Shown: positions 598 to 7,453, counted from the stretch's first letter. The stretch is 64,000 nt of DNA from Methanosarcina sp. MSH10X1 (GCF_004099695.1 NZ_SCHL01000008.1:1-64000), one strand, 5' to 3'. The notes: a model not told the origin generated them from the letters alone. Numbers and translations are program-made.

Positions 598-3021
598 TCA
601 GGCCTCCTTACAAAGTCTCTTGAGGTTAGTTGGCTGTGCCGAGACGTCGAATTTGATCTTCGGACCGGATATGATTTTCTTCTTCTTCCAGTCAATTTCC
701 CATCCGCGTTCTGCTTCAAGCTTCTTCAGGAGTGCTTCACGGTTAGCCAGCGGGAGGTCAGCTTCGTTCCTGACAAACTTCCACCAGTCTTCAGGTACTG
801 TTCCACCAAGGTATTTCTTATGGAGCTCCATCCAGTGGGTCAGTTTAATAGCTCTGCCCATGCTGTTATCGGACGGGCGGATGCAGGCTTTTGCCATCAT
901 CGGAATCGCTTCCTGCCAGGTCTCTGCTGTGGTCAGGAGGAATTCGGGTGCTGGTGGGATTGCCATTTCCTGGCCGTTCCTTGCATCGTAAACTTTCCAC
1001 TTGTCCTCTTCATAGGTCTTGGCAATCAGAGCTCTCCTGTACTTGGAGGAGTGTGGACCGAGCACTGCAGGGATACCCAGGATGTTACAGCCGGTACCAA
1101 TTGAGGAGGCCTTCTGTGAGAATGCACCCCATGCAAGCCCGCAGGCACCTACACGGTTCAGGACATAGTCTGCGATCTCGGCAAGGTTGCCTTCAAGGGT
1201 TCTCTGGGCAAAAATAGCTGCGACCTTCTCGGCTGCTCCGGTAATGTGGGCGTTCGATACACAGGATCCGATGTTGACAAGTCCTCCGCACTGGAACCCA
1301 CCTGGATACCTTTCATATAGAGTCTTGCCGTCTTCGTCCTTGAACATACCAATATCCATTGCTCCACAACCGGTCGTAACTACGATGAAGTTCCTCTTTA
1401 GGAATTCTTCTGCAATGTAGTAGACGTCCTTTGTGCCTTCTGCATAGTTCGGGCATCCGATAATTGCAATAATACCTGGTGTGGTGCCCATGACGAGGTT
1501 GAGACCTTCTGCACGAATCTCGGCGTCAGAAACCTGGCCTCTGCCTGCTCTCATAAAGCCTTTCTCTTCAGCGATCTGCTTCTGGGTGACCTTTTCAATC
1601 AGGTTGAGGATTGGGATTTCTTTCTTACAGACCTGTTCACAGCGGCGACAGCCGATACATGGGTCGTGGAGTTCCTCGAGATATGAGTAGTCTCCCTGCT
1701 TTGCAAATCCCATGGCTTCGGGAATGTCGAGTTCCTCAGGGCAGGCAATCAGGCAGGCTCCACAGTCTGCACATTTTGCAACCCAGTTTGCGAGTTCTTC
1801 ATCAGTAGGGATTGCAGTGATACCGGAAGCATCACGGATGGGAGCCATTTCCATAGTGAGTCTGATACAGAGCTCTCCGAGCTTATCATAGTCCAGCATC
1901 ACACAGCCGGGAATCTTCCCTGACTTGAGCTCCTCAATGGTCTCATTAACATCTGCATCGGTTCTGTTTGGAAGTCCAAACATGATCTTGGGATTGGATG
2001 CGATGACCGGAATCATGAGCTTCTGAGCTTCAGGTAAAATGTCACCACGGACACACTGTTCGTCAACAACAATGACATCTGGCATTCCGGAGCGAATTAC
2101 CTTGAGTTCCTTGGACATAGAACCGATGACCTTTGCATATGGGGGTCTCCTGTCAGCTTCCTTGTATCTTGTAAGATCAATTGCGGTACAGCAGAGCCCG
2201 GCAATTTCCATTTTTTCAGTCAGGTCGTGCGCTTCCATGTAGTCCATCATGTAGGTGACACCGCCTACATTATGCCCTATAACGCACAGGAAGGGCTTGG
2301 ACTTGTCAATTGTCCCCATACCGATTTCGATAAGAGGGGCATCCGGGTCAGCTCTCGGGAAATCATAGGCGGCTACCTGTACAACATCGGAAATTTCCAT
2401 GCCTACATGGTCCAGGCTACCGCTGAAGAGGGCTTTTGAGTCGTAATCGATCTCTGCGGATTCCTGGCCTGCATGGACGGTTGCAAGGAGCTGGGTGAGC
2501 TCTTCTTCAACATATTCCATTGCTGGCTTTATTTCACCCAGGTTCTTGGGGCTGAGCCCTGTGCTGATTGTGATATTCGGAGTAAGCACATTTGATTGCC
2601 CGAGGTTGAGGGGTAAGTCTTCTCCAAATTTTTCAATCAGGTGGTCAAGCAGGTGACGGCCATGGGCTGCGTGGCAGGCAGTACCTGTAATCACGCGGAG
2701 GAAGAATTCTCTCCCATTGTGGCCCTTCATGTCAATACCACAGGCACCTCTCTTGTTTCCAGAAAGGTCACAGGGTCCGTAAGTACAGTAGCAGCACTGG
2801 TCACACATGGGGGTAATAACAGGCTCGTAACGGTCAAGCAGTTTGAAGTTCCAATCATCCCTGTAAGACTCGAGTCCTGGGAAAAGTGTGGGACCTGCTT
2901 TGACGAGCTCCTTTGCTTTTTCTTCAGCAGCCTCCTTTGCTGCCCCTACAATATTATTGATAGTGATCTGAACGGATTCAAGATCCTCTATAGAAAAAGT
3001 CCCAGTAGTTAATTTGCTCAT
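598..3021 (-). CDS. cdhA: CODH/ACS alpha subunit CdhA (Ni-Fe-S CO dehydrogenase)
   Basis: An 807-residue catalytic CO dehydrogenase subunit, which oxidises CO or the carbonyl of acetyl-CoA to CO2 in acetate cleavage and runs in reverse in carbon fixation. N-terminal cysteines at about 73, 76, 77, 79, 84 and 94 are the B/D cluster ligands. Two ferredoxin-type 4Fe-4S motifs follow ([12 protein letters not shown] at 417-428 and [11 protein letters not shown] at 455-465). C-cluster candidates are His250 and Cys323, Cys552, Cys587 and Cys627, in motifs such as GHNVGG and GSCVSNAH. The start is ATG at 3021 with GGAGG at 3032-3036. It is the first gene of the operon, preceded by a long leader. A 23-codon degenerate copy of its start exists at 4129-4200. 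Confidence 0.97.
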
Positions 3022-3442
3022 TTTAGCTTTACCTCCTAAATACGCTTAAAGTCACTTCATCCGACGATTCTTGAAAGTTCCAGCTATTTAAATAACATTT
3101 TTAGTAAATCGTTTTTAAATTTTTATAGAATCTACACACTTACAATACAGAATCAAGTACAGTAATTTTGGCAGGTAAACCCTTGAATTTCTAGAGTTTC
3201 GGGGCCGCTGCTTTTATTTTTAACTCAAGTGGGTAAGTTCTATACAGTAAACGTTGTGATCTCGGAAAAACAAACGAGATCTAGAGACTGTCCGAAAAGT
3301 TCTATGTCTGTTGTAAAATTTACAATTGAGCATCCAATTGGACATTTAACTGGATAATTAGTGTTTATTATCCGGAATCCGTTCATTTGTATTAATAATT
3401 GTAGAAATTACAGCAGGCTATAGACTTTTCAGATATACTCTT
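3022..3442 (-). promoter_or_regulatory. long 5' leader of the cdh operon (copy A)
   Basis: If transcription starts about 25 bases downstream of the TATA-like box at 3463-3471, the cdh mRNA carries a leader of about 420 nt. A long leader that regulates expression has been reported for Methanosarcina cdh operons, which fits. Within it the arms 3292-3310 and 3424-3441 are inverted repeats centred on CCGAAAAGT and ACTTTTC, so the first ~20 nt of the RNA could pair with a segment ~130 nt further on. The single difference in copy A (C:A on the plus strand) becomes a G:U wobble in the leader RNA. The same arms occur in copy B. A small MITE cannot be excluded as the origin of this inverted repeat. 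Confidence 0.6.
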
Positions 3443-3460
3443 AAATTACACATTAGCGAT

Positions 3461-3475
3461 GTATTATAAATAATT
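3461..3475 (-). promoter_or_regulatory. probable cdh operon TATA box (copy A)
   Basis: The minus strand reads TTATTTATAATAC here, a good archaeal TATA box, about 440 bases upstream of cdhA. The box and about 20 bases downstream are conserved in the duplicate at 4486-4500. The position of the transcription start was not measured; it is inferred from normal TATA spacing. Confidence 0.55.
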
Positions 3476-4002
3476 TGCACTTTTGTTCTGTTTAAATATA
3501 ATAATAGACATCCTTTTCGTATAATATAAATCTAAAATATTTTAATCCTTTAACTCTTTATAGGAAATGAAAAACAGCATCAAGTGTTCACCTTTCATAA
3601 GATCTGAAAATAAACTTATTCGAATAAAGGCAAAGCGAGAGCACCGGTGGTTAGCAGAATTCTATGTTAAAACAGTTGTAAAAGGCAGAAAATAGCTACT
3701 GGACCAACGGACGTGTGATACAAAACTATTAAGTAAACATTATAGTTATAACTGTATTTTTTAGAGTTGGGAACTTCCCGCTATTGGTTTAGGTTTAAAA
3801 TGCAGAATCTTAAAAATGGATTCAAGCTTATCAGTTAACGAATAATTTAATCACATGGCGTTAGTTATTTATATTACCCCTCTTCTGCGTAATTTGACTG
3901 TAGTTTGAGTTAAGTGGAATCTCAGAAACTCAAAAGCTACTTATTGCAGACCCAGTATAATTTTACTAATTGCTCTCATAATTACTAGTAATTATTAACA
4001 TA

Positions 4003-4056
4003 GGGCTGCTGTTATAATGGGAATATCCCGGAAAATTTTCTAAAATGATCTCAAAA
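4003..4056 (+). pseudogene. DUF134 gene fragment 1
   Basis: This stretch matches the helix-turn-helix part of the intact DUF134 gene at about 5610-5665; both contain the words GGGCTGCT/GAGGCTGCT, TATCCCGGAAAA and TTTTCT/TTTCT in the same order. It has no open frame of its own and ends where the cdhA fragment begins. Confidence 0.65.
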
Positions 4057-4128
4057 AATCCTGGGAAAGCTTGCAGCCTGCTTTAACGGGTTACTTTACT
4101 TTTTCTTCAGCAACCGTCTGTCTCAATT

Positions 4129-4200
4129 CTAAAAATTATTGATAGCTGTTTGAACAGCTTCACAATTTCTTATAGAAAAAATTCCAGTTAACTTACTCAT
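4129..4200 (-). pseudogene. truncated cdhA start (23 codons) behind a duplicated leader
   Basis: The minus strand begins at ATG 4200-4198 and reads MSKLTGIFSIRNCEAV followed by QTAINNF and a TAG stop, against [18 protein letters not shown] in the real cdhA. Homology in DNA continues beyond the stop to about 4060. A GGGAG-like ribosome binding site lies upstream. It is clearly a duplication remnant, but its frame from the ATG is intact for 23 codons and it sits behind a preserved promoter and leader, so a short peptide could still be made. Confidence 0.75.
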
Positions 4201-4471
4201 TTAGCCTTATCTCCCAAACACGCTTAAAGCTACTTATCAGGTGTATCTTCAATATCTAGGATCCTTCGATATCAGTAAACATTGTGATCTCAGAGAAATA
4301 AAAGAGATTTTAGAGACTGTCCGAAAAGTTCTATGTATATTGTAAAGTTTACAATTAGGTTCCCAATTGGACGTTCAATTGGACAATTAGTGTTTATTAT
4401 CCGGAATCCGTTCATTTGTGATCACTTATTGTATAAATTACATTAAGTCCCATACTTTTCGGATAGCTCTA
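4201..4471 (-). promoter_or_regulatory. orphan cdh-type leader (copy B)
   Basis: This is the duplicate of the cdh leader. The inverted repeat arms at 4311-4329 and 4454-4471 match better than in copy A: CCGAAAAGT pairs perfectly with ACTTTTCGG, and TTAGAG pairs with CTCTAA outside it. It precedes only the 23-codon cdhA remnant. If transcribed from the duplicated TATA box it would give a short RNA sharing structure with the real cdh leader. Confidence 0.55.
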
Positions 4472-4485
4472 AATTACACATAAGC

Positions 4486-4500
4486 GATGTATTATATATA
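4486..4500 (-). promoter_or_regulatory. duplicated cdh-type TATA box (copy B)
   Basis: The minus strand reads TATATATAATACATCGC, equivalent in position and sequence to the box at 3461-3475 of copy A. The TATA core is intact despite divergence nearby, so the duplicate promoter may be active. Confidence 0.5.
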
Positions 4501-5039
4501 GTTTTCATTTGTGTTCGATTCAAATATAATAATAGATATTTTCTTTATATTGTTTTATATTCAAATTCATTTGAGCTGTTAATTCATGATGGGATATGAA
4601 AAACGATACCTTGCGCCCACTTTTAATACTATATTAGAATGCAACTATTCGAATAAGAGGTAAAAAGAAAGTACCGGTAATTAGTAGAATTTTACGTTAA
4701 ATCAGTTGTAAAAGGCAGAAAGTAGCTACTGGACCAACGGACGTGTGATACAAAACTATTGAGTAAACATTATAGTCATAACTGTATTTTATAAATTTTG
4801 GAGCTTCTAGCTATTGGTTTAGTGTTTAAAATACATAATCCTAAAAATGGATCCAAGTTTATCAGTTAACGGACAATTAATTATTAAGCGTTAGTTATTT
4901 ATATTACCTCTCTATTGCGTAATTTGGCGGTCGATTGAGTTCAATGGAATCTCAAAAAGCCCAAAAGCTACTTATTGCAGACCCAGCAAAATTCTACTAA
5001 TTTTCTCTTAATTATTAGCAATTGTTAACGTATTACAGG

Positions 5040-5110
5040 AAGAGCTTCAGACTATTCTTCTTTGCATCTTCTTATTGCAATCCTCTTATTAATATTGTGA
5101 ATGCAAGAAT
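5040..5110 (+). pseudogene. DUF134 gene fragment 2
   Basis: The plus strand matches the intact gene at about 5560-5594: GAAGAG, TT, AG, CTATTC, TCTTTGC and CTTCT occur in the same order and spacing. Beyond about 5075 the similarity fades, with a weak echo around AAGAATGG. It marks the distal end of copy B. The remaining 5111-5431 is AT-rich and holds no recognisable gene; it should contain the DUF134 promoter. Confidence 0.6.
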
Positions 5111-5452
5111 GGCTACGGTCGCCAAAAATAGGGATTTAACAGCAAGACTAATGAAGAAACATAAAATACAGGAAGCAAACTGAAATAGAGAATATTGAAA
5201 CTTAAAGAGTTTCATTCCTCACTGCACAGTCAAAAAATAAAAATTTACGCAATGAATTATAGATATGATTAAGGAGAAAATTCGTTCTGGGGATATCGGT
5301 ATCAAAAATTTAATTGCTCAATAATTTCATTGTAGATTTGAAAAATCTAGATATAAATGATATTTAGCGTGCTGTTAAGGTCAATACTTTAAACGCTTTA
5401 TGAACTATATAGGTCGATAGATATTTATCAGGTGTCGCATAAGAGTAATCTG

Positions 5453-5965
5453 ATGGTCAATAAAGTTAAGCGCAGGGTGTCTTGCTTTCCAAAGGCTACC
5501 TATTTCAAGCCCAGAGAAGTTCCTCTTTGCTGCCTGGAAATCGCCACCCTCTCCATAGAAGAGATTGAGGCTATTCGTCTTTGCGACCTTCTACAAATGG
5601 AGCAAAATGAGGCTGCTAACAGAATGGGAGTATCCCGGAAAACTTTCTGGAGCGACCTCCAAAAGGCACGACAAAAGATAGCTGATGCTCTTGTTAACGG
5701 AAAAGCTATAGAGATTTCTGGTGGGGAATATGTTAATACAGGTGAATGCAGGGTCAATTTTCTTTGCAAAGAATGTGATCATGTGTGGGAACCAGAATTC
5801 AACCAGTATCGCCCCACAAGCTGTCCGAACTGTGGGTCCAGTCTAATTTTCCGTATTGGCGGCGATGGATTGGGAAAAAGATTCATTGATAATAAAATCT
5901 GCTGCCCCAGAGTAAAGGAAAGAAGCATAGATTCCAGTGAAGGAAATAAAGAACAGCGACAATAA
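5453..5965 (+). CDS. DUF134 family DNA-binding protein with C-terminal zinc ribbon
   Basis: A 170-residue protein. The first about 95 residues are a DUF134 domain, a sigma-70 region-4-like helix-turn-helix (ISIEEIEAIRLCDLL-like segment, then AANRMGVSRKTFWSDL). A zinc ribbon follows with Cys pairs CKEC and CPNC at about 104-132. Family members are putative regulators or Fe-S/redox-associated DNA-binding proteins. The frame is open back to GTG 5432, but homologues begin close to the KVKRRV segment, so ATG 5453 is preferred; neither start has a clear Shine-Dalgarno site. Two broken pieces of the same gene lie upstream in the duplicated cdh region, so this is the surviving copy of a locus amplified together with the cdh promoter. 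Confidence 0.85.
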   Translation: MVNKVKRRVSCFPKATYFKPREVPLCCLEIATLSIEEIEAIRLCDLLQMEQNEAANRMGVSRKTFWSDLQKARQKIADALVNGKAIEISGGEYVNTGECRVNFLCKECDHVWEPEFNQYRPTSCPNCGSSLIFRIGGDGLGKRFIDNKICCPRVKERSIDSSEGNKEQRQ

Positions 5966-6502: not shown

Positions 6503-6859
6503 GTGAATAAATTCGTCAAAGATAAAATAAATCAAAGTATGAATGATAGAAAACAACATCATTCCCGGTTTTTAGAAAATTGCAGCACTTATGACTCTTT
6601 TCTTGAATTAGAAAGGAAAGCATTTGAAGCTGGTAGTCTTTCACGGAAACATAAGGAACTTATGGCTCTGTCTATTTCTATTGTTACTAAATGTGAACCC
6701 TGTATTGAATGGCATGTTCAACAGGCTTGTTTAGCAGGTGCATCAGATAAAGAGATATATGAGACTATAGATGTGGCCATTGAAATGGGAGGAGGTCCCG
6801 CAGCCGCTTACTCGCGATTTGCTTTGAATGCATTGGATTTTCACAAAGAAAAAAAATAG
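6503..6859 (+). CDS. AhpD-like / carboxymuconolactone decarboxylase family protein
   Basis: A 118-residue protein with the AhpD-type redox motif CEPCIEWH: Cys64, Cys67 and His71, preceded by the helix KELMALSISIVTK and followed by the conserved GASDKEIYETIDVAIEMGG segment. Such small proteins act as disulfide-based peroxidase partners or redox proteins; no lyase function is implied by the family name. The start is GTG 6503 with only a weak GGA upstream; ATG 6539 is an alternative. The stop is TAG, which Methanosarcina can decode as pyrrolysine, but a readthrough product would add only about 21 unconserved residues. The gene is flanked by two copies of a short repeat. Confidence 0.85.
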   Translation: MNKFVKDKINQSMNDRKQHHSRFLENCSTYDSFLELERKAFEAGSLSRKHKELMALSISIVTKCEPCIEWHVQQACLAGASDKEIYETIDVAIEMGGGPAAAYSRFALNALDFHKEKK

Positions 6860-7126: not shown

Positions 7127-7453
7127 ATGATGGGGGATAAGGAAATAATATACGCAGCTGAGATCTGGTCTGTGAAACAGGGGAAAGAAGAAGAATTTCT
7201 GAATATCTGGACAGATCTGGCTAGCTGGACCAAGGCTAATGAGATGTGTAGCACCGGAGTTGTCTTGTTGCAGGATTTAGAGCAAAGGAATCGGTTTATA
7301 TCATTTGGTCCGTGGAAAACTTCAGCGTGCGTGCAGGCATGGCGTCAGCAACCGGAATTTAAAGCAGCTTTTGTGAAACTGAAAGAATTGTGTGATGAGG
7401 TAAAACTGAGTACGATGAAAAGCGTGTTTAACATTCCACAGGGCACTGTGTGA
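7127..7453 (+). CDS. antibiotic biosynthesis monooxygenase (ABM) fold protein
   Basis: A 108-residue single-domain protein with the dimeric alpha/beta-barrel ABM pattern: a first strand IIYAAEIWSVKQGKEEEF, helix FLNIWTDLASWT, a strand GVVLLQDLEQRNRFISFGPW, then W-rich helix AWRQQPEFKAAFVKLKE. Such proteins are small quinol or heme-type monooxygenases or stress proteins; the substrate cannot be read from sequence. AGGTG at 7118-7122 is the ribosome binding site; two consecutive ATG codons (7127, 7130) are possible starts. After the stop, 7454-7805 has no intact gene; a short open stretch at 7478-7558 (CGGCYKISVNPEASPKVSPV) looks protein-like but was not identified. Confidence 0.75.
   Translation: MMGDKEIIYAAEIWSVKQGKEEEFLNIWTDLASWTKANEMCSTGVVLLQDLEQRNRFISFGPWKTSACVQAWRQQPEFKAAFVKLKELCDEVKLSTMKSVFNIPQGTV

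Follow-up and report, generated by a model that had tools for sequence, protein, structure and literature searches.

A candidate antisense RNA gene of transposon origin that may couple two paralogous CODH/ACS operons in Methanosarcinaceae

Introduction

The DNA of Methanosarcina sp. MSH10X1 studied here (GCF_004099695.1 NZ_SCHL01000008.1:1-64000; this whole stretch of 64,000 nt is called the window) carries two tandem copies of a cdh promoter and leader upstream of cdhA of cdh1, one of two operons for carbon monoxide dehydrogenase/acetyl-CoA synthase (CODH/ACS). Copy A adjoins cdhA and copy B is the distal copy. The locus raises the question of why promoter and leader of copy B are kept when the coding parts beside them are dead. 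Methane production from acetate depends on CODH/ACS as its key enzyme, and the division of labour between the two cdh operons of Methanosarcina involves unexplained post-transcriptional control. Copy B is probably the gene of a trans-acting antisense small RNA (sRNA) directed at the paralogous CODH/ACS operon, cdh2. The promoter-leader copy seems to have been kept because it is an exact complement of the predicted cdh2 mRNA at its 5' end and co-varies with it, and this complementarity makes copy B look like an sRNA gene and not debris. It is also fairly likely that an antisense RNA gene derived from a miniature inverted-repeat transposable element (MITE), with the look of a decayed duplicate, couples the two paralogous operons, its target being tracked by co-variation across three Methanosarcinaceae genera.

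Results

Complementarity to the cdh2 leader

The predicted transcript begins with a long imperfect hairpin of ~150 nt (z = -4.9 in copy A, z = -2.0 in copy B). The hairpin core GGATAATAAACACTAATT (RNA GGAUAAUAAACACUAAUU) is the most conserved part of the RNA and the exact 18-nt reverse complement of AATTAGTGTTTATTATCC in the cdh2 leader. The elements concerned are as follows.

3285-3440, minus strand: MITE-derived hairpin of copy A, the 5' part of the cdh1 leader, with ends like terminal inverted repeats (TIRs) and TNA-type flanks
3356-3373, minus strand: 18-nt core of copy A, antisense to the cdh2 leader of this genome at G000:C1:3377-3394
3441-3473, minus strand: promoter A, with TATA box (3462-3473) and a downstream motif also found in DUF134 promoters
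4313-4469, minus strand: MITE-derived hairpin of copy B (covariance model R1, 110.2 bits), body of the proposed sRNA, with predicted start at about 4469 and running toward lower coordinates
4385-4402, minus strand: 18-nt antisense core of copy B, 18/18 Watson-Crick pairs with cdh2
4470-4501, minus strand: promoter B, with intact TATA box and the common downstream motif

The 18-nt target corresponds to the predicted positions +1 to +18 of the cdh2 mRNA, whose start is predicted as AAUUAGUGUUUAUUAUCC, and complementarity ends at this predicted +1. In cdh2 loci, the 18-mer starts 28 nt past a conserved TATATAG; the start of the 18-mer and the cdhA ATG are about 351-380 nt apart (371 nt in this genome and in G029). 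A leader of 371 nt has reportedly been described for cdh of M. thermophila, and the published cdh leader studies are said to deal with this 371-nt cdh2-type leader.

When 31 Methanosarcina genomes were searched with at most one mismatch, the 18-mer was found in sense orientation in the cdh2 leader and in antisense orientation in the cdh1 array of promoter-leader copies, and nowhere else apart from one match in G010 that lies inside a probable coding sequence and was judged to be due to chance. The reversed pattern, used as control in this search, gave zero matches. In a family search of 112 genomes, the only other genera with the 18-mer were the two that carry the array. An adjacent and equally conserved 18-mer of the hairpin served as negative control, and no partner of it was found elsewhere in 10 genomes, one match with two mismatches aside. 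The duplex predicted for this genome has -24.6 kcal/mol, compared with a mean of -13.0 and a best value of -19.4 for 20 shuffled targets.

Co-variation of the distal copy with cdh2

Both loci are present in 18 genomes, and in each of these the distal copy is complementary at 18 of 18 positions to the cdh2 of the same genome. The cdh2 sequence is changed in G022 (GTGTG), G023 (GTGTCC), and G038 (ATTACCC), and the distal copies of these genomes change to match exactly (permutation p = 0.0002 for distal-cdh2 matching). The cdhA-proximal copies match perfectly in 7 of 17 genomes (Fisher p = 1e-4 vs distal); in G022 and G023, the distal copy followed the change in cdh2 and the proximal one did not. 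The cdh2 18-mer of G016 is the variant AATTAGTGTTCATTATCC, and the array of this genome may lie in an assembly gap.

The main rival explanation is a common protein-binding site, in which a single regulator recognises the same 18 bp, in DNA or RNA form, at the cdh2 start and in the cdh1 array, the sites and the specificity of the regulator evolving together. Such a regulator would also yield matching variants at both loci, and it would explain why the 18-mer is conserved in genomes lacking the array. It is nevertheless judged unlikely, because the proximal copies of G022 and G023 were left unchanged when the distal ones followed. Moreover, the site stands in a different context and in inverted orientation to transcription, and a DNA operator would have no need to stop, as the match does, exactly where cdh2 is predicted to start.

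Selection on the distal copy

All 17 genomes examined have kept the distal hairpin, at a mean pairwise identity of 0.86 (0.82 for the promoter), compared with about 0.69-0.71 for the other parts of the distal copy: upstream block, DUF134 fragment, and truncated cdhA. Inside the distal hairpins, the 18-mer is 0.976 identical and the rest 0.834. Among barkeri-type genomes, identity is 0.92 for the distal hairpins and 0.65-0.68 for the sequence beside them, and these hairpins resemble one another more than the proximal copies; gene conversion from the functional leader is therefore not the explanation in these genomes. The upstream block was also considered as a second conserved RNA and was ruled out, as its conservation is ordinary (~0.69) and its local high identity is due to conversion.

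These values bear on two further explanations. An earlier note on this DNA had read the locus as a tandem duplication with decayed coding parts; in the corresponding explanation it is debris, the similarity of the copies coming from time and gene conversion. Tracts of conversion or re-duplication are indeed clear in the window (a 24-nt insertion), in G020 (an identical tract), and in G038 (near-identical copies), and the coding parts are dead. This reading was already disfavoured and has very little probability left, as conservation of the distal copy is restricted to promoter and hairpin in the 17 genomes, and where the proximal copy does not match cdh2, conversion from it cannot create such a match. 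Hardly more probable is that the copies are extra promoters only, copy B being a tandem upstream promoter that feeds read-through into the cdh1 operon. All copies face cdhA and have kept their TATA boxes, and in barkeri-type genomes the copies are a few hundred bp apart; in the window, however, copy B is ~1.4 kb from cdhA, and a promoter function gives no reason for an 18-nt core conserved above the rest of the hairpin or for the distal copy tracking cdh2.

Arrangement of the duplication in the window

The tandem duplication of cdh promoter, leader, and cdhA start, which the earlier note had proposed, is borne out by pairwise alignment. Copy A (3245-4057) and copy B (about 4265-5030) are direct repeats with 81% identity over 765 nt (E = 6e-195). 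In self-comparison of the window, colinear repeats 3245-3971 and 4273-5002 (identity 80-89%) keep a steady offset of 1028-1031, in agreement with the claim that both copies have the same order of elements and that each ends in a DUF134 fragment. The 5' pieces of cdhA (2880-3057 and 4063-4235) are 74-83% identical, and the DUF134 piece 3997-4057 is 75% identical to 5604-5664. The junction of a DUF134 piece with a cdhA piece is seen near 4060, and the 5' ends of both genes are present, as expected if the duplicated unit took in both. No third copy of the repeat was found in a search of the whole genome.

From left to right, the order is cdhA, leader and promoter A, upstream block, DUF134 fragment, dead cdhA start, leader and promoter B, upstream block, DUF134 fragment B, and the intact DUF134 gene. 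At its far end (from ~3871 and ~4901), what had been called the conserved upstream block takes in the beginning of the DUF134 pseudogene. The leader of copy B has lost ~150 nt between the ribosome-binding site (RBS) and the hairpin. The 24-nt insertion in the hairpin is common to both window copies and occurs in no other aligned Methanosarcina genome, for which reason gene-conversion tracts are probably behind parts of the high identity of A and B. The remaining features of the locus are listed here.

598-3021, minus strand: cdhA of the cdh1 operon, alpha subunit of CODH/ACS (TIGR00314, 1040.8 bits)
3022-3284, minus strand: leader of copy A on the cdhA side of the MITE, with RBS, AT-rich stretch, and small U-loop hairpin H2 (3233-3284)
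3531-3870, no strand given: upstream block A, with ordinary conservation and gene-conversion tracts
3871-4062, plus strand: DUF134 pseudogene fragment A
4059-4200, minus strand: dead cdhA 5' fragment of copy B, a 23-codon frame followed by a stop
4201-4312, minus strand: residual leader of copy B, with RBS-like sequence and degraded H2, the ~150-nt distal leader being deleted
4563-4900, no strand given: upstream block B
4901-5085, plus strand: DUF134 pseudogene fragment B
5453-5965, plus strand: intact DUF134 gene for a helix-turn-helix protein, a candidate regulator (PF02001, 4e-25)

The likely true start of the intact DUF134 gene is ATG 5453, and its relatives align from MVNKVKRR or MVNRVKRR. 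Small genes for a carboxymuconolactone decarboxylase-like protein (PF02627) and an ABM-domain protein (PF03992) lie 3' of it, at window positions 6503-6859 and 7127-7453. The promoters of cdh1, the array, and DUF134 (window 3441-3473, 4470-4501, and ~5405-5452; DUF134 promoters in L057, L058, L059) have in common a TATA box and a downstream motif of ~20 bp (TCGC..A.GTGTAATTT); blast matches of the cdh1 promoter to the DUF134 promoters of G002, G012, and G019 are 34-37 nt long with 88-89% identity. The motif is a possible operator of the DUF134 protein, and its presence with the TATA box in these promoters suggests their common control by this protein.

Distribution of the array

Comparison of the cdh locus across genomes, as the earlier note had proposed, showed that 14 of the 31 Methanosarcina genomes have an array of 2-4 promoter-leader copies upstream of one of the two cdh operons. 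In two other genera, 4 genomes have two copies each, arranged in the same way. M. spelaei MC-15 and Methanosarcina sp. KYL-1, DH2, and 2.H.T.1A.6 are among the carriers. Fragmented assemblies aside, array genomes have at least two cdhA genes each, and Methanosarcina without the array have one. The claim that promoter-leader copies are alive and coding parts decayed thus holds as such, not as a product of local decay: the array is old and is present in 18 genomes of three genera.

The cdhA and DUF134 fragments are dead wherever translated, being mostly frameshifted or stopped early. Selection on truncated CdhA peptides was ruled out, as no conserved open frame was found among the eight cdhA fragments translated, most of them frameshifted, stopped early, or without a start, and the fragment is missing from barkeri-type arrays.

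The two cdh operons are ~10-13 kb apart and in the same orientation in G036:C1, G037:C2, and G023:C41; this proximity and co-orientation suggests that cdh1 and cdh2 arose via tandem duplication and were separated later. In G009, CdhA of the other operon (L071) is 96% identical to the window CdhA and the array-linked CdhA (L098) just 86%, which suggests gene conversion between the paralogues.

Origin of the leader hairpin

The inverted repeat that the earlier note had seen in the leader is present in both copies; it is, however, a transposon-derived MITE of ~155 nt. The window leader is a different, MITE-based one and not the cdh2-type leader, although the note had alluded to the cdh leader as a known regulator. 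The cdh1 hairpin was looked for in cdh2-type leaders and was absent there.

Strong matches of the R1 covariance model (>90 bits) are confined to cdh1 arrays, and dozens of weaker full-length matches are scattered across several genomes (47 matches in G001, 38 in G002, and 26 in G020, array and opposite-strand matches counted). The dispersed relatives inspected are MITEs of ~125 bp with GAGCCTATCCGAAAAGT ends, most of them flanked on both sides by TTA/TAA (TNA target duplications). The same TIRs are paired ~870 bp apart in G001 and G002, and the G001 element contains an IS5_3 transposase (NF033580, 265 bits). The TIRs of these ~870-bp insertion sequence (IS) elements are the ends of the cdh hairpins. 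Judged by its sequence, the cdh leader hairpin is a domesticated MITE of IS5-family origin.

It has in common with the IS5-family MITEs the GAGCCTATCCGAAAAGT ends, the TNA duplications, and a parent element of ~870 bp that carries an IS5 transposase. Unlike them, the cdh copies lie at one locus and are conserved across genera, and the confinement of strong matches to cdh1 argues for these copies being fixed and not mobile. Array and MITE are near-identical in the first ~40 nt and different in the apical core; the dispersed relatives are without the 18-nt core, which is therefore derived. No dispersed MITE copy was found in this genome, and a search for empty sites in cdh2 promoters using joined flanks gave nothing convincing. 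Our literature search brought up no work on Methanosarcina MITEs with a bearing on this hairpin. In G023, an extra MITE-like hairpin (nhmmer E 1e-17; L052:4593-4727, plus strand) lies downstream of DUF134 in opposite orientation. A search with the covariance models of Rfam 15 gave no match apart from a chance one (E = 4.4).

Discussion

In the favoured reading, an IS5-type MITE would have landed beside DUF134, where the transcribed region of an ancestral cdh1 operon begins, and turned into the 5' hairpin of the cdh1 leader. The promoter-leader unit would then have been tandemly duplicated and its coding ends would have died, with promoter and hairpin of the distal copy staying under selection. 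The predicted sRNA would run on the minus strand from about 4469 down to ~4313 or ~4265. An internal stem-loop would hold its 18-nt antisense core, which matches the first 18 nt predicted for the cdh2 mRNA, and the sRNA probably pairs in trans with the 5' end of this mRNA. As the promoter of the sRNA is a copy of the cdh1 promoter, isoform switching would be the simplest logic: when cdh1-type promoters are active, the sRNA would alter cdh2 expression, and that it lowers it is a guess. Masking of the RBS or blocked translation initiation is unlikely because the target is 350-380 nt from the start codon; action through the cdh2 leader, by start-proximal folding, elongation, or 5'-end stability, would be more plausible.

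Several observations weigh against an antisense sRNA. The co-variation events, though independent, number just three. Shuffled targets gave duplexes as strong as -24.5 kcal/mol for G001. The cdh2 18-mer is also conserved in G006, G010, G013, G015, and G029, which have no array, and therefore it has another function of its own. In the hairpin alignment, 95.8% of cells are paired, yet covariation is not clearly above that of shuffles, and a strand test gave 34 G.U vs 17 A.C events with an equally biased unpaired background.

A trans-acting archaeal RNA has been proposed for the same enzyme complex before, namely sRNA41 of M. mazei for post-transcriptional control of ACDS/CODH-ACS (Buddeweg et al. 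2018, as given in the review PMC5867862). sRNA41 reportedly masks ribosome binding sites within a polycistronic mRNA. The candidate described here has a different target, at the very 5' end predicted for a leader of ~370 nt, and its gene is a duplicated MITE-leader of the paralogous operon. Regulation by the cdh 5' leader in Methanosarcina is attributed in PMC5112694 to Anderson et al. 2009. That system is alike in being leader-based control of cdh, the cdh2-type leader being 371 nt in G029 as given above, and differs in that the window leader is another, MITE-derived one. To our knowledge, no antisense partner is known for this earlier leader regulation.

If the common promoter motif is the DUF134 operator, DUF134 would control cdh1, the sRNA, and itself. 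If copy B is an sRNA gene, a concrete and testable regulator and target site for cdh control would be at hand, and a duplicate with the appearance of a pseudogene can conceal an RNA gene. It would be a candidate archaeal case of a domesticated transposon fragment working as a trans-acting regulatory RNA.

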